A DNA stretch of 64,000 nucleotides from Desulfamplus sp. GTDB lineage: Bacteria > Desulfobacterota > Desulfobacteria > Desulfobacterales > Desulfobacteraceae. The stretch is from positions 1 to 64,000 of the forward strand of contig JADFZQ010000016.1 of the NCBI GenBank assembly GCA_015232455.1, in the 5' to 3' direction. A program made the translations under genes and the position numbers. Under the pieces are notes generated by a model that was given only the letters and a program-made list of their open reading frames with translations, made no database searches and was not told the origin of the DNA. This document shows, one piece after another, positions 17,473 through 26,142 of this stretch (position 1 is the first letter of the stretch; each line of letters begins with the position of its first letter).

Positions 17473-18372
17473 TTAATTTATATTTATTGATGATTGTCCC
17501 GTTGAAGTTGTTGCCCCAAGCTCATACAAAAGCTCTAATAAACCTTGCCCAAAATCGTGATAATGGACAGGAGCAACCTTAATTGCTTTATCAGGCTTAT
17601 ATGAATAAGGTGTTATGTTATAATGGTTATTATCTCTTCTGGGCAGAAACTCAATATCTATATCATTGCCAAGCATCTCTTTAATTATATTTAGCAACAT
17701 GTCTAATCTAAAAGATTGATTACCTGTCATAATAACATTCTGATTATGATAGGTAGTGCCTAAAAGATTGACGCACTCCTTTGCAGCATCAGATACATGT
17801 ATATACTCTCTTATCTGATCTGGAGAGCCATAGCAGGTTATCTTTTTTTCATCAAATGCTTGAGTAATCATCTTTCTTATTGAGTTAAAATGATTTGATC
17901 TTGGTCCGTAAGGCGTTCCAATTCTAAATATTGTGTAGCCTAAGTTGAATTTGTTGGAATACTCTTTAATAAGTTTTTCACATGACTGCTTTGAGACTCT
18001 GTAAAAACTACCAAGCTCAGTATAAACATACATGGAGCTTGCGAATAAAAAACGTTCAATATTTAATGTCGCACACGCATCTAAGATGGCACAAGTCCCC
18101 ATTACATTAGTGTGCATAGTCTCCCAAGGCATCAAAGTTGACTCTTCTATATCTGCTATTCCAGCAAAATGATATACATATTTAGAATCTTTAATAATCT
18201 CTCTAATAAATTTTCTATCAAGAAGATCACCAGTAACCATTGTCTGGTTCTTTTGAAGATATGGGGAAGTTACCTTATCAAAGATAACAACATCGTATCC
18301 TCTAAAAGTCAATTCATCTGCAACATGACTGCCGATGAATCCAGAACCACCAAAGACAACAACTTTATCCAT
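17473..18372 (-). CDS. NAD-dependent epimerase/dehydratase (extended SDR)
   Basis: This is a Rossmann protein of 299 residues with GGSGFIGSH at the N-terminus and an active-site YRVSK (YxxxK). Its fold class covers nucleotide-sugar epimerases and dehydratases. The start at 18372 is preferred because AAGGAGG lies 9 bases upstream; an in-frame ATG ten codons earlier would include that site in the coding sequence. It is tightly packed with the cyclase (3 bp) and the HAD gene (36 bp). The substrate is unknown. Confidence 0.85.
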   Translation of the reverse strand: MDKVVVFGGSGFIGSHVADELTFRGYDVVIFDKVTSPYLQKNQTMVTGDLLDRKFIREIIKDSKYVYHFAGIADIEESTLMPWETMHTNVMGTCAILDACATLNIERFLFASSMYVYTELGSFYRVSKQSCEKLIKEYSNKFNLGYTIFRIGTPYGPRSNHFNSIRKMITQAFDEKKITCYGSPDQIREYIHVSDAAKECVNLLGTTYHNQNVIMTGNQSFRLDMLLNIIKEMLGNDIDIEFLPRRDNNHYNITPYSYKPDKAIKVAPVHYHDFGQGLLELLYELGATTSTGQSSININ

Positions 18373-18408
18373 TTGTGAGAACCTCCTTGTTGTGTAACAC
18401 AAATTTAT

Positions 18409-19062
18409 TTATTCAGATAGAAAACAAACAGTTGAAGAGATTGGAGTATCTTGTGGAAAGGGGGAAGAGGTATTTTTAGATACTATTCCCAAAAAACGGG
18501 TGCCAGTTGCTTTTGCTGCATTATAATCAGTCATGGCATCTCCTATAAAAAGAGTTCTTGATGGTTCGATACTATACTTTCTCTGTATATCCTGAATAAT
18601 CTCATTCTTTAATCGTGGAGAACCGTGAACTTCTTTAAACAGCATTTCAATGTTGCGTCTTTTAATAATAAGTTTGAGTTCCTCTTCAGGAGTACCAGAT
18701 ACAACAAAAGCTGGGATATTTTGTCTATTCAGTAGTTGTAAGCTCTCCAAAGCACCTTCAATATAAGGTGATTCCAATACGCCTTGCAAAACTAAATCTG
18801 AAAACTTATCGCCTAAATTTATAAGCTCTTCTTCTGTTATGGGAGTGTTAAGAAGTGTCTCATAATAATATCTAAACTTATTAAAACGAGATATGCCGCA
18901 ATGGGCAAGATGATAATCAACGACTTTTTGTTCCACTTCAGAGCCATAGGAACGAAACATTTTTGCAAACGCTTCTGTCTTTACATTAACAGAGTCCAAA
19001 ATTACTCCATCAAAGTCAAAAAAAACAGCTTGAAGTGAAATCGACTCTCTTTTATCCCCCAT
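18409..19062 (-). CDS. HAD-superfamily phosphatase/hydrolase
   Basis: The 217-residue protein has HAD motif I DFDGVILDS (near 16), motif II VVSGTPEEE and motif IV GDAMTDYNAAKATG. The order and cap size fit the phosphoglycolate-phosphatase or beta-phosphoglucomutase group. In this operon it is likely to remove or move a phosphate on the small molecule handled by the dehydrogenase and SDR. That role is inferred from context only. Confidence 0.85.
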   Translation of the reverse strand: MGDKRESISLQAVFFDFDGVILDSVNVKTEAFAKMFRSYGSEVEQKVVDYHLAHCGISRFNKFRYYYETLLNTPITEEELINLGDKFSDLVLQGVLESPYIEGALESLQLLNRQNIPAFVVSGTPEEELKLIIKRRNIEMLFKEVHGSPRLKNEIIQDIQRKYSIEPSRTLFIGDAMTDYNAAKATGTRFLGIVSKNTSSPFPQDTPISSTVCFLSE

Positions 19063-19092: not shown

Positions 19093-20073
19093 TTACATAT
19101 TTAGTAAGATTCTAAGTAGATTATCCACAGATTGATTTTCCATTATAATTCTGCCTTCTAAAGCATAAGAACCAATATGACTTGTTAATAAAACATTATC
19201 TAACTCTTTTAGATTACCCAAATAAGGTTCTTTCTCAAAAGAATCAAGAGCCGCACCTGCTAAATGATCAGATTTCAAAGCCTCATAAAGAGCTGTTTCA
19301 TCTACAAGCCCACCTCTTGAGGCGTTGATTAAGTAGGCACCTTTTTTCATTAACTTGATTTTGTCATTATTAATAAAGTGATGATTTTCAGAGGTATAAG
19401 GTATGTGGAGGGTAATAATATCAGATTCTAAAAGAAGTTGAGGTAGCTCAGAAGGTTGATAACACAAAGAAGATTTATAGTGCAAACTTGATGAATCAGG
19501 GTCTAAACTGTTACAGGCAGTTGATGAATCGTTATGTTTATAAGCATCATAGCCCAATACCTTACATTGAAAAGATGATAGAAGTTTTGCTAAATATGAT
19601 CCAATTCTACCACAACCTATAATTCCTACTGTTTTTCCAAAAAGAAGCCCACCTGTTGGTCTATACCACTGTCCATTCCTAATAGCTGAATCAGCATTAT
19701 GGATTTTCCTCAGCAGAGACAACATAAGTCCCATAGTAAGTTCAGCAACAGGAATAGTAGGGGCATCAGGTGTGTTTGTAACAACAATTCCCATACTTTC
19801 AGCAGCTTCTATATCTACAGAATCCAAACCTATTCCGCATCGAGAGATAACTTTTAGACCCGATGCTTTTCTAAGAACATTTGAGGTAAGCGGTTCTACT
19901 CCAGCAACTATACCTACAGGTTTATGAGCTTCAACTAGAGAGAAAACTTCATCTTCTGTAAGTTTGCGTCCGTAAGGATTAAAAATAACCTCAAAACCAC
20001 TATTTTTTAGCCTGTGAATTGAAGTAGTATCATGTAGTCCAAATGATGAGGTGGTAATCAGGATTTTATTCAT
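19093..20073 (-). CDS. D-2-hydroxyacid dehydrogenase (phosphoglycerate dehydrogenase-like)
   Basis: The 326-residue NAD-dependent oxidoreductase has the nucleotide motif GIIGCGRIGSYLA, the catalytic arginine region SRGGLVDE, and histidine in TSHIGSYALEGR. It lacks the C-terminal ACT domain of long SerA. A Ser/Asn/His-rich insertion (near 180-200, KHNDSSTACNS) interrupts the nucleotide-binding domain. It is the first gene of the dehydrogenase-HAD-SDR-cyclase set. It may oxidise a 2-hydroxy acid sugar derivative; serine synthesis cannot be excluded. Confidence 0.85.
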   Translation of the reverse strand: MNKILITTSSFGLHDTTSIHRLKNSGFEVIFNPYGRKLTEDEVFSLVEAHKPVGIVAGVEPLTSNVLRKASGLKVISRCGIGLDSVDIEAAESMGIVVTNTPDAPTIPVAELTMGLMLSLLRKIHNADSAIRNGQWYRPTGGLLFGKTVGIIGCGRIGSYLAKLLSSFQCKVLGYDAYKHNDSSTACNSLDPDSSSLHYKSSLCYQPSELPQLLLESDIITLHIPYTSENHHFINNDKIKLMKKGAYLINASRGGLVDETALYEALKSDHLAGAALDSFEKEPYLGNLKELDNVLLTSHIGSYALEGRIIMENQSVDNLLRILLNM

Positions 20074-20131: not shown

Positions 20132-21187
20132 CTATTCATAAAAATTTTCTGTAGCTCTTGCAAATGCTTCATAAATTGCAGGAATTGGAAGTCCGCGATT
20201 GTCTGTAGCAGATTTACGCACAGAAATAAGAAATTGTTTGGTATATGCTAATGGAATATCTTTGGGATTTTTGCCACGTATAATGTCAAAAGCCATCTGC
20301 CCTGATACTTCTCCTTGTTCATATCCAGAAGTAAAGACCGAAATCATTCCTCCATCAGATACATTGATAAGCGACATTCCTAAAAGTGGAATTTTTGAAT
20401 TAGCTTCTGTCCATGCCATAATCTCTGAAGGTTTTATAGGCTCTTTTTCGCCAGAGGGAAGTCTAAATTCTCTATAATCACTTACTAAGATAATATCTGC
20501 ATATTCATTTACCTTTTTTATAGCTTCTTTCCACTGATCAAAGTTATCCACACGAACAGGTTCCAACCATTCAAGGCCTTTCCAATCAAATGAGTTAAGA
20601 CCCGGAAGCTCTGCTGTAACTGATCCAGATTGATCACATACAAATACTACCTTAGGCTTTTTTGCTCCAACATCATCGGGTCTGAAGCCTTTTGCCTGTG
20701 CCATCATAAGGAGAGTCTCTCTTATAGCTGCTAAAGGTTTACGTTCAAAAATTCCAGTAATGTTATTTGCCTTGTCATATCCATATATATCTACTCCACC
20801 GTTAACCGCACAGAATACAATTTTTATAGAAGGATCATTGATATATTTCATTCCAACCAACTTTTGAGCTATATCATCAGCAATTATAAGCACATCAGGC
20901 TTCCAGTTTTTAATTGTGATGTGAGCCGTAGATGCAGCTGTCCTCTTAAAATCATCATCAGTATGATTTTTAAGATCCATGTAATGATGCCTTAATGTGA
21001 TTCCTTGTCGATTCTCAAAAATTCTCCTGATACCCTCATCCATCTGTATAACCCAAGGGTAATCAGTATGGTAGCTGTGCAGAATCATTATTCTTGGTTT
21101 TTGTGCTTTTTGGGCAAGTATAAAACCAGCCACAAGTATTACCATAGCTATCTTTAGAAAGAGTAAAAAATTCTTTTTAATATTCAT
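20132..21187 (-). CDS. Periplasmic substrate-binding-like protein (PF04392 type)
   Basis: About 351 residues with an N-terminal membrane helix (FLLFLKIAMVILVAGFILA) that serves as signal or anchor. The mature part begins with HSYHTDYPWV, a hallmark of the ABC-type sugar/uncharacterised binding proteins also found as sensor modules of histidine kinases. The start at 21187 forms an ATGA overlap with the upstream permease gene; a TTG seven codons earlier is less likely. No ABC permease or ATPase accompanies it, which suggests it works with the coupled cNMP-domain permease or as a sensor. Confidence 0.75.
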   Translation of the reverse strand: MNIKKNFLLFLKIAMVILVAGFILAQKAQKPRIMILHSYHTDYPWVIQMDEGIRRIFENRQGITLRHHYMDLKNHTDDDFKRTAASTAHITIKNWKPDVLIIADDIAQKLVGMKYINDPSIKIVFCAVNGGVDIYGYDKANNITGIFERKPLAAIRETLLMMAQAKGFRPDDVGAKKPKVVFVCDQSGSVTAELPGLNSFDWKGLEWLEPVRVDNFDQWKEAIKKVNEYADIILVSDYREFRLPSGEKEPIKPSEIMAWTEANSKIPLLGMSLINVSDGGMISVFTSGYEQGEVSGQMAFDIIRGKNPKDIPLAYTKQFLISVRKSATDNRGLPIPAIYEAFARATENFYE

Positions 21188-23118
21188 ATTATATTCAGAT
21201 ACCTCCAAAATGGTATTGAAGCATAAATTGCCAATATACGACCAATTATCATGAGAATATTGAATACAATGATTCTCTTTTCGTCATACATACTATCAAG
21301 ACCGTTAATTAATAAAATTTCTTTGATTTGAATAAAATATCCACATTGATATGAAAATATATATGCCTCTGCCATAGTAAGAATGATAAATCCTACAACC
21401 CATGGAGAGATTCCAGCAGAATTTGCAAGAGGAAACAGAGCTGTAACAAATAAAATTACAGTAATAGGTTCAGGAAGGACGAGTCTGACAAGAACTATTA
21501 TAGCACAAAGCATTCCTATAAATATGGGAAGACTTGTCTTCATATAAATTCCAAGCCACTCTAAATTACTTGCTACTAATTTATCAATACCAGTTTTTGA
21601 CATTACAGGCAGCCACGCAATAATAGCACCAACGAAAATCAATGTTGTCCAGTCAATATTTGATCTAATCTCATTGTTTCCAATAAACCCAAATAGAATA
21701 AGGACAGTTAAAATCGAAAATGACATCCATGGAATATCTACTTTATGTACTGATGTAAAGAGAATCCCTATAACTAACACACCTATAGCACCTAAAGCTC
21801 CCCACTCTAATGATGAAGTTGGACCAAGCACCTTTAATTGTTTTGATATTATATTGGACGAAATTTTGAAATCGCGAGCATTTCTGAATACAAGCCATGA
21901 TATTGCAAAAAACATAATAAACATTAGTATGCCTGTAAATGAGGCAGCTAAAAGCCACTGTAACCATTGAAATGCAAATTGAGTTTGATAGTCAAACATT
22001 CCTAAGACTATGAGATTAGCTGGTTTTCCCGTTAGAAATACGGAAGCCATAAGCCCAACACCACCGAGAGTGCTATTTAGAAAATGAGCCCCTAACATAT
22101 CTTTCTGCTGCGGCTCAGAAGCCCCCATAATATCAACAAGGAATGGAGATATTATAGCAGTTCTTGCACCTTGAGATGGAACAACTGGCGTTAGAACAAA
22201 ACCGCTGAAAAAAAGACTTACACTATACCAAAATGAGGATGAAGGAACGAGTTTCAGAATAAGCAAAGAGATTCTAAATGTTAGCCCAGAGACAACCATT
22301 ACAGCCCCCACGCCAAAGACACTTAAAAGCATAAAAAAACTGCCTGATGCAAAGCCTGAAACAGCAACATTCGGATCAACAATGTCTAATAATATTGCCA
22401 TAATTACCACAAAAAGAGGTGGAGCAAATGCGGGAACAATGTTAAATATCCACATAAATACAGCAGATGCAATTATAGCAACATAATAAGCAGAATTCTT
22501 TTCAAGCCCAAAATGAGATGCTGTAATCCAAACCCCTAATGTGCCAAAAAAAGTTATGAGCCAACCCAAAGTCTCTTTAATAGGAAACGCATCTTTTTGT
22601 TCCAGATATTTATCAGAAGCCTTTCCTATTTCTGACTCTTTTTGAATTGCATTAGCAATATTTGAATGTGTAGCAGGATCACTATTTGTGTAAGATTGAA
22701 AAAATTTATTCTTGACTTCAGGGGAAAATTCGGCAATACGTATAATATCTCTCGTAGGAATAACTATTACAGTTGATGGTTTTAAAGCAATTACAGACAT
22801 TAAATATGTCTTAGCTCCCAACACACCCTCCTGTCCTAAATATTCTCCTGATATGGGAGCTATTTTACGCCTTTCTATTTCTGTCTCAGAACCTTGCCTT
22901 AAAAATGTAAACTCACCGCTTTCAATAAGAAAAACTTTGTTTGTGGGTTCATGTTCCCTAAATAGGATTTCACCTTTATCAACTTTTCTGTATTCTACAT
23001 GCATAAGCATGTGAGCAAGCTCTCTTGGCAAAGCGTTTTTCAAAATAGGGTTTGAAATAAGTTTGTCCAAAATTAATGTATCAGATGATATTTCAGATGT
23101 CTCTATTTGTTTAGTCAT
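21184..23118 (-). CDS. Cyclic-nucleotide-binding-domain / SLC13 (DASS)-type permease fusion
   Basis: The 644-residue fusion has an N-terminal Crp-like cNMP-binding fold (about 30-135) joined by a short linker to roughly twelve membrane helices resembling divalent anion:sodium symporters (motif VVPSQGARTAI). In the phosphate-binding cassette of the first domain, the usual Arg-Thr/Ser pair reads KTYLMS, so classic cAMP binding is doubtful. It probably moves a di- or tricarboxylate or sulfate under control of a cytosolic signal. It is translationally coupled to the binding-protein gene and follows the receptor-channel gene. Confidence 0.8.
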   Translation of the reverse strand: MTKQIETSEISSDTLILDKLISNPILKNALPRELAHMLMHVEYRKVDKGEILFREHEPTNKVFLIESGEFTFLRQGSETEIERRKIAPISGEYLGQEGVLGAKTYLMSVIALKPSTVIVIPTRDIIRIAEFSPEVKNKFFQSYTNSDPATHSNIANAIQKESEIGKASDKYLEQKDAFPIKETLGWLITFFGTLGVWITASHFGLEKNSAYYVAIIASAVFMWIFNIVPAFAPPLFVVIMAILLDIVDPNVAVSGFASGSFFMLLSVFGVGAVMVVSGLTFRISLLILKLVPSSSFWYSVSLFFSGFVLTPVVPSQGARTAIISPFLVDIMGASEPQQKDMLGAHFLNSTLGGVGLMASVFLTGKPANLIVLGMFDYQTQFAFQWLQWLLAASFTGILMFIMFFAISWLVFRNARDFKISSNIISKQLKVLGPTSSLEWGALGAIGVLVIGILFTSVHKVDIPWMSFSILTVLILFGFIGNNEIRSNIDWTTLIFVGAIIAWLPVMSKTGIDKLVASNLEWLGIYMKTSLPIFIGMLCAIIVLVRLVLPEPITVILFVTALFPLANSAGISPWVVGFIILTMAEAYIFSYQCGYFIQIKEILLINGLDSMYDEKRIIVFNILMIIGRILAIYASIPFWRYLNII

Positions 23119-23229: not shown

Positions 23230-26142
23230 TTAACTATTAATGTTTCTCTCTTTTTGCATTTTGTATATTCTATCTATCTTAGTCATACTACGATACAAAT
23301 GGCTGTGAACAACTTTAGCCTGACTCAGAGCTTTAGATATTTTTTTTGCAACCGTATGTTTATAAAGTCTCATTTTTCCATAATTTTTTACTTTAAATAT
23401 TGCAAGATACTCGTTTGACCACTCACCAAAGTTGAACCTAACAACTGCATTTTGAACACCTTCTGTAGATAACATAGCATTTAATAATATTGTTTCTACC
23501 TGTTCAGGCGGGTGAAGAGAAGATACGTGTATCTTTATGCTTATTAGGTAGGCATCATCAGGATAGTCAAAGTTTTGTATAATGGATTCAGATGCCATAG
23601 AGTTAGGAACACTTATAATATTGTTACCTACTGTTTGTATTCTTGTAGTTCTCCATGTTATATCAATAACTTTGCCTTCAATTGAATCATTTATTTTAAT
23701 CCAATCTCCGATTCGGAAAGGACGCTCTAAGTTTATAGCAATTCCAGAAAATATGTTTGAGATATTAATTTGTATTGCTAAACCTATTATCATGGCTATC
23801 ATACCTGAAGTTGCTAAAAGGCTTGTTATTTTTTGATCAAATACAAAAGCTATGATCCCAGCAAATACAAGCATCCAGATAATAACACCTACACAACGGC
23901 GAACAAGATTAGGTATGTTTCTACCTGCCCTTTTCTCAAGAGGTTCCCATATAAAACGTTCAACTGACATATTTAGAAAAAAACCAAATATGAGCCACCA
24001 CATAATATCAAAAATCTGTATAATAAATTTTGGATCATAGGAGTCATTTTTCTCAATAAGCCATTGCAAAAGAATCATCTCTGTGCTTAAGAGTAAAAGA
24101 AAAGATGATATAGATTGAGCCAATAAAAATGATTTACTTTTTAAGAATAAATCTCTTTTTATCCCAATAATAAAAAACGATAACATAGTTAATATGGAGA
24201 TGAAAGCAATATACGTAGCAAGAGATAATGAAATATTTCGTCTAATTTGAAACTCCACCTTTTTAATACGTATTCCAATATTAAATCTTGAATAATCAAC
24301 AATTCCAGATTGGGTATTTAGATGATCTGGATTGCCAAGCGACTCTTTCTTTGAAATACCTTGATAAAAAGCGATCCGACTCACAGACCAGCCATATTCA
24401 GGACTTAAAGCCTGTGATTTTTTGATCTTCTCTTGCAAAGATTCAGTTGTTCCCATTCCTAATATGTCAGTTACATAAATTAAATTAGACCTTGGCATAT
24501 CACGATGACGAAATCCTATTCCAAGAACATGCTCTCCAAAAATAGGGTTATCTGTAAAAGAGTCCATCATAAAACGACCTTTTACATGGTATAGCTGATA
24601 TGTAATCTGATCGGTAATTTTTTCATCTACAGGAGAACCTAGCTCAACAGATTCCACAGAATTAAGAAACTCTATTTTTTGTGGTTTTATATCACCATAA
24701 TATCTAAACCAAATATAAAAATCAGACATAAATGTAAGAGATTTAGTATCAATTTCAGTCAACTTATTTATTTTTATACCTGTATAGACAACATTGGTTT
24801 TGTACATATACTTATTATCCATAAGTATTATGCGCTGATCTTTTAAAGCACCTTCAAAGTCTGGAATTTCATTTAGATATTGTATTTCTTGTATCTGCAA
24901 TGGTGCGGATATAAGCTGCTGATTTTTAAAAATTCCCATTGAAATTGGCTTTGATGGGTCTCTTGTTTCATTGAAATATGTAAATCCAGTTATACCGTCC
25001 ACGGCATCAAGAGGATTATCTATTGCGGCTATATAATCTCTTATCTTTTTTCTGTCTTCTTTTAATGTATTTTTATTACCCGTAATACCCGCATTAATTA
25101 AAGCTTTATGTATTACTTTTGCTGCATCGTATGAAAATGCAGCTCGTCTATTTGCAGATTCTCCATATTTTGAATGATATGACTCCATAAATGTTTGAAC
25201 ATTTTCATCTGCGGTATCGAAAATAATACCACTTGCGGCATACATTCCGTTTGTATAATAACCTGGATTATTTTTTTCATTAGGATATTGATCAAATTTC
25301 TTTAAAAATTCTGGAGAATCAATGCCTGCTGCAAAAAGAATAGGATTTTTAATTCCACTGTCTCTGAACAATTTTATAAGTTTAAACCCTTCTGGAGGAT
25401 GGAGTGCCAAAAAAATAACGCCAGCATCTTCAGAATTACTCTGTAACTCATCAACAATCTGTTTAAGACGTGAATCTAAATTTCTATCTTTTACCTCGTA
25501 ACGCCATATATGCCTTACATTTCCCCCAACATCTTGATATGTCTTCTGAAAAATAGCAGCAAGGTTAGCTCCATAATCAAGGTCTTCATGGATAATGCTT
25601 ATTGTATTTTTTTGGAAAACTTTGGAAATATAATTTGCTAAAAATCGTCCTTGAAAATCATTATTAAATGTAATCCTAAAATACCATTCATTATTCTTTG
25701 TTACCATAACGTCTGTTGATGTAGGAGATACAGCAGGAATTTGGTTCTGCTGATAGATTTGCCCACCTTTTATAGAACATGAACTACTTTCATGCCCTAA
25801 TACCGCAACTGCTTTATTATCTTTTATGATTTTAAGGGCTTCTCTTTCTGCTTTTGCAGCATCATCTTCATCATCATACATATCTAAAATAACTTTTTTT
25901 CCATTAATTCCACCAGCCTCATTAACAGCATCAAAGTAGAGTTGAGTGCCTTGAATAACTGATTTTCCGTTAGATGAGTTTGGTCCCGATATAGGACAGA
26001 CTACAGCAATGTGAATATCATCTGAATTGTCAGTGAAAAAGAGAGATGAAATTTTATCAGTGGATATAAATAGAGGTAGAATAAACAGGATAAGTATTAT
26101 TACAAATAGAGATTTTAATATTATTTTCTTATCTGTCTTCAT
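23230..26142 (-). CDS. Receptor-channel fusion: periplasmic binding protein + pLGIC-like domain + MscS channel
   Basis: The protein has 970 residues, in order: signal/anchor helix (8-27); LivJ-type periplasmic binding domain (about 43-430, starting HIAVVCPISGPNSSNGK); a beta-rich segment (about 450-635) that resembles the extracellular domain of pentameric ligand-gated channels (IKINKLTEID, FMSDFYIWFRYYGD, NPIFGEHVLGIGFRHRD); membrane helices near 638-660, 672-696, 706-728 and 750-769; then an MscS pore helix and beta domain (IGLAIQINISNIFSGI near 787-801, RPFRIGDWI). I infer a channel opened by a periplasmic ligand. The PBP and MscS parts are clear; the middle domain is recognised by pattern only. 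It starts with no evident Shine-Dalgarno. Confidence 0.8.
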   Translation of the reverse strand: MKTDKKIILKSLFVIILILFILPLFISTDKISSLFFTDNSDDIHIAVVCPISGPNSSNGKSVIQGTQLYFDAVNEAGGINGKKVILDMYDDEDDAAKAEREALKIIKDNKAVAVLGHESSSCSIKGGQIYQQNQIPAVSPTSTDVMVTKNNEWYFRITFNNDFQGRFLANYISKVFQKNTISIIHEDLDYGANLAAIFQKTYQDVGGNVRHIWRYEVKDRNLDSRLKQIVDELQSNSEDAGVIFLALHPPEGFKLIKLFRDSGIKNPILFAAGIDSPEFLKKFDQYPNEKNNPGYYTNGMYAASGIIFDTADENVQTFMESYHSKYGESANRRAAFSYDAAKVIHKALINAGITGNKNTLKEDRKKIRDYIAAIDNPLDAVDGITGFTYFNETRDPSKPISMGIFKNQQLISAPLQIQEIQYLNEIPDFEGALKDQRIILMDNKYMYKTNVVYTGIKINKLTEIDTKSLTFMSDFYIWFRYYGDIKPQKIEFLNSVESVELGSPVDEKITDQITYQLYHVKGRFMMDSFTDNPIFGEHVLGIGFRHRDMPRSNLIYVTDILGMGTTESLQEKIKKSQALSPEYGWSVSRIAFYQGISKKESLGNPDHLNTQSGIVDYSRFNIGIRIKKVEFQIRRNISLSLATYIAFISILTMLSFFIIGIKRDLFLKSKSFLLAQSISSFLLLLSTEMILLQWLIEKNDSYDPKFIIQIFDIMWWLIFGFFLNMSVERFIWEPLEKRAGRNIPNLVRRCVGVIIWMLVFAGIIAFVFDQKITSLLATSGMIAMIIGLAIQINISNIFSGIAINLERPFRIGDWIKINDSIEGKVIDITWRTTRIQTVGNNIISVPNSMASESIIQNFDYPDDAYLISIKIHVSSLHPPEQVETILLNAMLSTEGVQNAVVRFNFGEWSNEYLAIFKVKNYGKMRLYKHTVAKKISKALSQAKVVHSHLYRSMTKIDRIYKMQKERNINS

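Follow-up and report, generated by a model that had tools for sequence, protein, structure and literature searches.

A conserved natural hybrid channel with a periplasmic binding protein, a ligand-binding domain of the pentameric ligand-gated type and an MscS pore

One gene in the 64,000-nucleotide stretch of Desulfamplus sp. DNA analysed here (contig JADFZQ010000016.1, positions 1 to 64,000; the window) encodes a real and conserved natural hybrid channel. Its product, P0001, is a chain of 970 residues read from a single open reading frame (ORF) with an ATG start on the minus strand, at 23230-26142; the corresponding frame of the plus strand has stops throughout. The chain comprises a periplasmic binding protein (PBP), a ligand-binding domain (LBD) of the kind found in pentameric ligand-gated ion channels (pLGICs) and an MscS channel. 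We consider it likely that in P0001 two unrelated superfamilies of ion channels have been joined into a natural chimera, in which a pLGIC head equipped with a PBP has had its pore swapped for that of MscS, and in which a ligand opens or tunes the channel.

The two ends of the chain are recognised by Pfam. Residues 43-361 match Peripla_BP_6 (E 1.9e-39, 136.8 bits) and residues 794-858 match the MscS β domain PF00924 (E 2.8e-18, 66.2 bits against a cut-off of 20.2). Searches of the PDB with phmmer return LivJ-type binding proteins (3hut, 3td9 and 4gnr) and, for residues 637-857, YnaI. A first-pass annotation had described a three-part chain of binding protein, β-rich segment and MscS, naming the PBP and MscS parts from motifs; both identities agree with the Pfam matches, and the layout as a whole is borne out by Pfam, the PDB matches, alignments and models.

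The kinship of the middle segment was examined with 99 LBD rows from MscS-type sequences (set A), 44 from pLGIC-type relatives (set B) and 11 ordinary bacterial pLGICs of 332-411 residues. Sequences entered sets A and B by resembling P0001 or its family; the sets are an uneven sample, in which counts based on A1, a 16-row profile of MscS-type LBDs, favour the MscS type. Relatives of about 710-770 residues match P0001 through about residues 5-660 only, and alignment of set B with P0001 shows the PBP and β domain to be common to both until the end of the last strand, after which set B has a four-helix bundle. Most set B proteins have YPFD or a similar motif in the Pro-loop, and they occur in the same taxonomic order as the MscS-type proteins. 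A profile of 12 of them matches ELIC, GLIC and GABAA chains across both the LBD and the M1-M4 helices (best E 2.9e-20). The Pfam cut-off for Neur_chan_memb is passed by two of the eight scanned (L115 and L118), and Neur_chan_LBD is matched at E 0.078 by one of four searched at E up to 1 and by none of four more searched at E up to 0.01. We take set B to be pLGICs because of the profile match to ELIC, GLIC and GABAA chains and the two proteins that pass Neur_chan_memb.

The set A LBDs are tied to the pLGICs by several profile comparisons. With hhalign they align to the set B LBDs at 100% (E 2.2e-67) and to the 11 ordinary pLGICs at 97.3% (E 2.6e-11, 113 columns), or at 95.4% (E 1.7e-8) when L164 is left out; six controls, comprising the binding protein, MscS, the pLGIC helices, the cyclic-nucleotide-binding domain (CNBD) and two reversed profiles, all remain below 1%. 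The 99-row set A profile (HMMER) finds L164, a plain 341-residue pLGIC to which Pfam gives the name Neur_chan_LBD, at E 6.2e-14, and two pLGIC-like proteins of the genus at E 1e-11 and 2e-9, its best E among 758 other ORFs being 0.2. A 44-domain profile of set B finds all 11 ordinary pLGICs at E 5e-4 or better, and a joint profile of 28 domains matches the chimeric GABAA chain 6cdu (E 3e-5; best single stretch 0.003). The window's own genome also encodes a 371-residue protein (L195:817-1929) with a YPLD loop and four hydrophobic helices, which matches the family profile at E 1.6e-9 and the set B helix profile at E 4e-7, and which on our reading is a plain pLGIC. A 364-residue protein (L196:1850-2941) has the same loop and number of hydrophobic helices and looks pLGIC-like by eye and by the family profiles; Pfam assigned no family to either protein.

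Two structures were predicted. The first covers residues 440-655 and was built from 28 rows of both types (pLDDT 78); all 1000 Foldseek chains examined have Z 8 or more, the best match being the nicotinic receptor nAChR 5kxi (Z 15.3, root-mean-square deviation (rmsd) 3.1, 154 residues). Because the set B rows could have lent this model their fold, the second (residues 436-970; pLDDT 84.5, pTM 0.60) was built from 80 MscS-type rows only. It agrees with the first on the sandwich fold, to which it adds five membrane helices and an MscS vestibule. YnaI, MscS and MscK are its top matches in Foldseek, with GLIC from rank 27 (E 4e-14 for YnaI/MscS and 2.7e-11 for GLIC). In a second structural aligner the sandwich alone matches 9oum_E (Z 15.1, rmsd 3.0, 158 residues); the rows that this aligner ranks higher extend over longer stretches with rmsd values of 7.5 to 12 and are no evidence of a shared whole. 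By profile evidence and predicted fold, the middle segment is homologous to the ligand-binding domains of pLGICs. The resemblance suspected in the first-pass annotation thus finds its support in hhalign, in the set A profile and in models that fold residues 450-635 as a pLGIC domain. Its proposed equivalent of the PFD-containing loop has also stood, the NPIFGEH segment aligning with the YPFD loop of pLGICs, and the GWSVSRI motif placed before the first helix does lie upstream of it, but at residues 584-590, some 50 residues before the first membrane helix.

The sandwich is followed by the pore of a different superfamily. Four helices precede the pore helix, the number originally counted from the sequence (Table 1); the MscS pore and five helices are present, and the four-helix M1-M4 pore of pLGICs is not. 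A retained M1-M4 bundle ahead of MscS was considered and rejected, there being no room for it in the alignment and the model having five helices in YnaI order. Alignment and tree show a loss of the four-helix pore and gain of a five-helix MscS pore, similar to those of YnaI and bCNG channels, near where the last β strand ends. Conservation is among the highest in the pore helix and gate region, which have invariant columns. The first transmembrane (TM) helix may be a remnant of M1: a proline at its start is common to 66 of the 99 set A rows and 39 of the 44 set B rows. The predicted topology places the PBP and LBD outside, in the periplasm, and the MscS vestibule in the cytosol.

What was lost from the LBD bears on how such a head is joined to its pore. 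A charge pair of Cys-loop acid and pre-membrane base is described, in a passage of Tasneem et al. (2004, PMC549065), as apparently universal and as one that might act in gating, and the loop proline is given in part of the account by Jaiteh et al. (2016, PMC4795631) as the only absolutely conserved pLGIC residue. The trio of Pro, acid and Arg is found in 11/11 ordinary pLGICs and 33/44 set B rows but in 0/99 of set A, where Pro (9/99), acid (6/99) and Arg (3/99) are rare even singly. In P0001 a proline immediately precedes the column; if a shift of one is allowed, Pro is present in 16/99 set A and 43/44 set B rows. Among the 22 LBD columns that differ most between the sets, 13 fall on the Pro-loop or pre-helix stretch, where 26 of ~200 positions lie: six in 529-541 and seven in 628-640, the latter partly the junction itself. 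The remaining nine are 447, 450, 469, 487, 488, 523, 553, 564 and 608. Many core columns are kept in both sets, W478, F479, R480, N494, D559, W585 and S618 among them. Loss of the trio is the pattern expected if the LBD was kept for sensing and re-fitted to a new pore, and comparison of the two sets separates the residues that are kept, for the fold and perhaps for binding, from those lost with the old pore, the Pro-loop acid and the pre-M1 Arg. Since the trio is absent, P0001 falls outside the definition of a pLGIC, although its head belongs to that family.

The hybrid is widespread. When 84,980 species were scanned, each through one genome, 78 loci were obtained, taken from the best 80 of 168 confirmed hits, and 71 of these 78 have the MscS layout. 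They hold 92 ORFs with the LBD. The full layout of PBP, LBD and MscS, for which the first-pass annotation had proposed a search, is that of 85; three have a pLGIC bundle and four have neither pore (two cut by contig ends, L078 apparently truncated, and L106 with an NTPase-like stretch). The PBP is present in 90 of the 92 LBD-selected ORFs, the other two being cut by contig ends, and L103 holds only about half of it. A CNBD is carried by 42 of the 85 MscS-type ORFs and is lacking from 43, three of which are cut at the 3' end; Pfam finds none in P0001. The carriers include the isolates Desulfoluna spongiiphila AA1 and D. butyratoxydans MSL71 and the complete chromosome of Desulfonema magnum. Going by record titles, most carriers belong to Desulfobacterales and Thiotrichales, and the labels Magnetococcales, Leptospirales, Rhodospirillales, Burkholderiales, Deferribacterales and others each occur once or twice, several of the labels on metagenome-assembled genomes (MAGs) looking doubtful. 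Within the order of the window's genome the LBD occurs in either form in 46 of 389 genomes, and of 30 loci returned from it 29 carry MscS and one is cut.

Closer to P0001, the layout recurs in a second gene of its own genome (L002, 33% identical over 13-889), and orthologues at 69-93% identity, some fragmented or cut, are present in six further genomes of the genus. Compared with the L048 orthologue from Desulfamplus (92% identical), P0001 has a ratio of nonsynonymous to synonymous substitution rates (dN/dS) of 0.13 overall, 0.08 for the sandwich, 0.11 for the binding protein and 0.09 for the pore and β domain; against L051 the ratio is 0.04 for the LBD and 0.12 for the pore. These values are low in all parts, and the whole P0001 chain is therefore under purifying selection.

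Some relatives are organised differently. Two such genes stand in tandem at 14 of the 78 loci, and in 12 of the 14 one lacks and one has a CNBD, the first gene being without it and the second with it (L057, L060, L066, L067, L072, L073, L077, L079, L084, L086, L093 and L104); these pairs hint at mixed channels. In L106:3636-7007 (Candidatus Parabeggiatoa sp. HSG14) the chain runs from a PBP and pLGIC-type LBD into a membrane stretch and then a P-loop NTPase-like part, with no MscS. That part, GQIILEGESGLGKT, is NACHT/STAND-like by eye, with Pfam AAA_22 below its cut-off, and may represent a third kind of output attached to this head. A single chain in L115:3708-7271 (Candidatus Parabeggiatoa sp. 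nov. 2) combines PBP, LBD, pLGIC bundle and a C-terminal SBP_bac_1 domain.

How did the hybrid arise? A tree was made of 118 LBDs less than 70% identical (66 from set A, 38 from set B, 9 ordinary and 5 unclassed); it is a quick tree, without bootstrap, and no branch has the ordinary pLGICs, which serve as outgroup, alone on one side, one of the nine falling with a set B row. All 66 set A rows and four unclassed rows form one clade (Shimodaira-Hasegawa-like approximate likelihood-ratio test, SH-aLRT, 100), which is nearest to three pLGIC-type proteins (89) and lies inside the rest of set B when the tree is rooted on ordinary pLGICs. Because there is a single set A clade inside the pLGIC-type rows, a single exchange of a pLGIC pore for an MscS pore is probable; the ancestor would have been a bacterial pLGIC that already had a periplasmic binding protein before its LBD. 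The PBP tree has three changes between the sets, with long branches meeting, and therefore does not confirm the single origin suggested by the LBD tree. The CNBD requires at least eight changes on the LBD tree, and we therefore claim no order for its gain and loss.

The pocket of the binding protein was compared with that of LivJ. The amino-acid pocket of LivJ is formed by what we take to be S79, T102, Y150 and an acidic residue at 226. P0001 retains the Ser, Thr and Tyr positions and has Ala at the acidic one. Over the 93 set A rows compared, Ser is found in 83, Thr in 60, Tyr in 78 and Asp at the acidic position in 45; Asp or Glu occupies that position in 34 of 44 set B rows. An amino-acid ligand was rejected as a firm claim, the acidic position not being retained in P0001. 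Ser, Thr and Tyr without the acid would, as a guess, fit a carboxylate that lacks an amino group.

We propose that P0001 probably forms a channel that a chemical signal opens or tunes. The binding protein would close on a small solute in the periplasm, probably a carboxylate or something resembling an amino acid, and this closure would shift the LBD. Through its connection to the outer helices of the MscS part, which serve as tension sensors in MscS itself, the LBD would then open or tune the pore. The old pLGIC coupling residues would have been given up because the partner pore was new. In this scheme the ligand, the gating through the outer helices and the oligomer are what we infer.

Several observations weigh against such a ligand-gated chimera. 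Pfam, at E up to 1, finds nothing in residues 440-660 of P0001, including no Neur_chan_LBD; the 16-row A1 profile matched 0 PDB chains; and of the 10 ordinary pLGICs other than L164, the 99-row set A profile gives seven E 0.16 or worse and leaves three unmatched. The Pro-loop proline is absent from its column in P0001, the trio positions being I534, G536 and K628. The acidic pocket residue of LivJ-type binders is not retained in the protein's own clade, so that even the class of ligand is unsure. LBD heads are normally pentamers and MscS pores normally heptamers, and for a five-fold LBD on a seven-fold pore either the ring geometry differs or the LBD forms no usual ring.

Could P0001 simply be a mechanosensitive valve still, with a pore that opens by tension only and a PBP and LBD that are passive or set its periplasmic surroundings? 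The pore, β domain and vestibule are those of a standard MscS, the five-helix part resembles YnaI and the pLGIC coupling residues have been lost. We nevertheless regard such a valve as unlikely: by the dN/dS values from both L048 and L051 the LBD is as constrained as the pore, the Ser, Thr and Tyr pocket columns are retained in most members, the PBP is all but constant among the LBD-selected ORFs and the gene heads a metabolic and transport cassette. A receptor in which the MscS part serves mainly as something other than a pore, and which signals instead to a DASS transporter or adjacent cyclic-nucleotide systems, would fit the conserved cassette with a DASS symporter that has a cyclic-nucleotide domain, the CNBD present on many of the MscS-type ORFs themselves and the one pore-less occurrence of the same LBD, on the P-loop NTPase-like stretch of L106; it is quite improbable given that the pore helix and gate region are so strongly conserved. 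An assembly or gene-calling artefact that fused separate genes, the error the first-pass annotation had allowed for, might be thought of because the carriers are mostly MAGs and because Jaiteh et al. (2016, PMC4795631), in the part concerned, set aside pLGIC pieces fused to unrelated ones as possible assembly faults, but it is refuted, with next to no probability left to it, by the recurrence of the same join across many independent assemblies, including the two isolates and the complete D. magnum chromosome, and by purifying selection across the join.

The ligand-gated chimera, then, leaves a mismatch of symmetry as the puzzle of interest, one that tests how a pLGIC head talks to its pore. 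We lean slightly towards the view that a transplanted head of the nicotinic/GABA-receptor family still gates an unrelated pore of usually different symmetry, the LBD forming a seven-fold ring or working outside a ring, and that these proteins are a widespread kind of MscS channel gated by ligands and bearing as many as three sensors (PBP, LBD and CNBD). Coupling of LBD to pore in pLGICs has been probed largely with laboratory chimeras. Here the chimera is natural, its pore is unrelated, and the same order still contains relatives that have kept the old pore, so that it becomes testable whether the LBD needs five-fold symmetry. MscS channels, known mainly as tension valves, would gain a periplasmic chemical input, and the pLGIC head would be a mobile sensor module.

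Each half of this arrangement has known counterparts. Bacterial pLGICs with an N-terminal PBP-I domain appear in passages of Tasneem et al. (2004, PMC549065); like P0001 they have PBP-I and then the pLGIC LBD, and they share common descent with the set B relatives, whereas the bacterial receptors of those passages preserve the LBD with its four-TM core and in P0001 the four-TM pore is replaced by MscS. The word 'mechanosensitive' has 0 occurrences in the text of that paper. The bacterial cyclic-nucleotide-gated (bCNG) channels consist of an MscS pore and a cyclic-nucleotide domain (Caldwell et al. 2010, via PMC4560390), and the passages of PMC4560390 concerned also attribute added 'ligand binding domains', which they leave unnamed, to MscS subfamilies. 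The likeness to bCNG lies in an MscS-superfamily pore run by a ligand domain, the 42 relatives with a CNBD having it at the C-terminus; P0001 differs in having no CNBD and in its added sensors, which are periplasmic and of pLGIC/PBP type. E. coli YnaI, which has five TM helices, and MscS resemble P0001 in the pore helix, β domain and vestibule, and we know of no periplasmic ligand domains in either. GLIC and ELIC have the same LBD fold, but their pore is the pLGIC four-helix bundle. DeCLIC likewise has extra N-terminal domains, but in the portion of its description consulted (PMC9897478) these are jelly-rolls rather than a PBP, and its pore is of the four-helix kind. NMDA/AMPA and metabotropic glutamate receptors carry a PBP-I-like domain on a receptor (for the NMDA-type and metabotropic receptors, a passage of PMC549065); what lies downstream is unrelated, and the likeness is one of analogy only. 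Among the matches listed by a search of the open-access literature (titles and abstract openings) there was no description of a PBP-LBD-MscS hybrid, and an earlier sighting is possible.

The channel gene heads a run of genes between rbfA and truB (both named by sight), with a putative cyclase after the epimerase. The six-gene cassette that includes the channel (Table 1) is found in the same order in Desulfoluna spongiiphila and D. butyratoxydans at another locus, where the 18 kb examined gave no match to infB, rbfA, truB or the cyclase. Because the cassette order recurs in Desulfoluna outside the rbfA/truB context, the channel probably belongs functionally with the cassette. A scan for promoters and terminators gave signals at the level of shuffled sequence.

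Table 1. Features of the hybrid channel gene and its cassette, in window coordinates
Feature	Coordinates	Strand	Basis
Whole gene: PBP, pLGIC-type LBD, 5-TM MscS channel, 970 aa (P0001)	23230..26142	-	ORF, Pfam, orthologues
N-terminal hydrophobic segment, residues 8-30, signal peptide or anchor	26053..26121	-	sequence only
LivJ/ANF-type periplasmic binding domain, residues ~43-430	24853..26016	-	Pfam, PDB matches, pocket columns
pLGIC-type LBD, residues ~440-638	24229..24825	-	alignments, profiles, models
pLGIC Pro-loop position, residues 529-541; Pro/Asp columns = I534, G536	24520..24558	-	alignment
pLGIC pre-M1 arginine position = K628	24259..24261	-	alignment
Predicted TM helix 1, residues 639-662	24157..24228	-	model
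Predicted TM helix 2, residues 670-698	24049..24135	-	model
Predicted TM helix 3, residues 704-739	23926..24033	-	model
Predicted TM helix 4, residues 745-767	23842..23910	-	model
Predicted pore helix (MscS TM3 equivalent), residues 772-806	23725..23829	-	model; YnaI/MscS match
MscS β domain PF00924, residues 794-858	23569..23763	-	Pfam
MscS cytoplasmic α/β vestibule, residues ~865-941	23320..23550	-	model, structure match
DASS-family anion symporter, N-terminal cyclic-nucleotide-binding domain; next gene, linked in Desulfamplus and Desulfoluna	21184..23118	-	Pfam, locus comparison
ABC_sub_bind protein, cassette	20132..21208	-	Pfam, locus comparison
D-2-hydroxyacid dehydrogenase, cassette	19093..20073	-	Pfam, locus comparison
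HAD hydrolase, cassette	18409..19062	-	Pfam, locus comparison
NAD-dependent epimerase/dehydratase, cassette	17473..18402	-	Pfam, locus comparison

The PBP-bearing pLGIC genes L028:5433-7970, L029:1989-4721 and L031:6213-9092 adjoin genes for large Peripla_BP_6 proteins, the L028 neighbour having Peripla_BP_6 and SBP_bac_5 by Pfam and those of L029 and L031 being named by sight. Finally, L037:1794-3980, L038:1472-3658, L039:1767-3941 and L041:685-2874 encode proteins of ~730 residues with apparently two type I binding domains in tandem, and in L038 and L039 these genes adjoin one that by sight is sensor histidine kinase-like.

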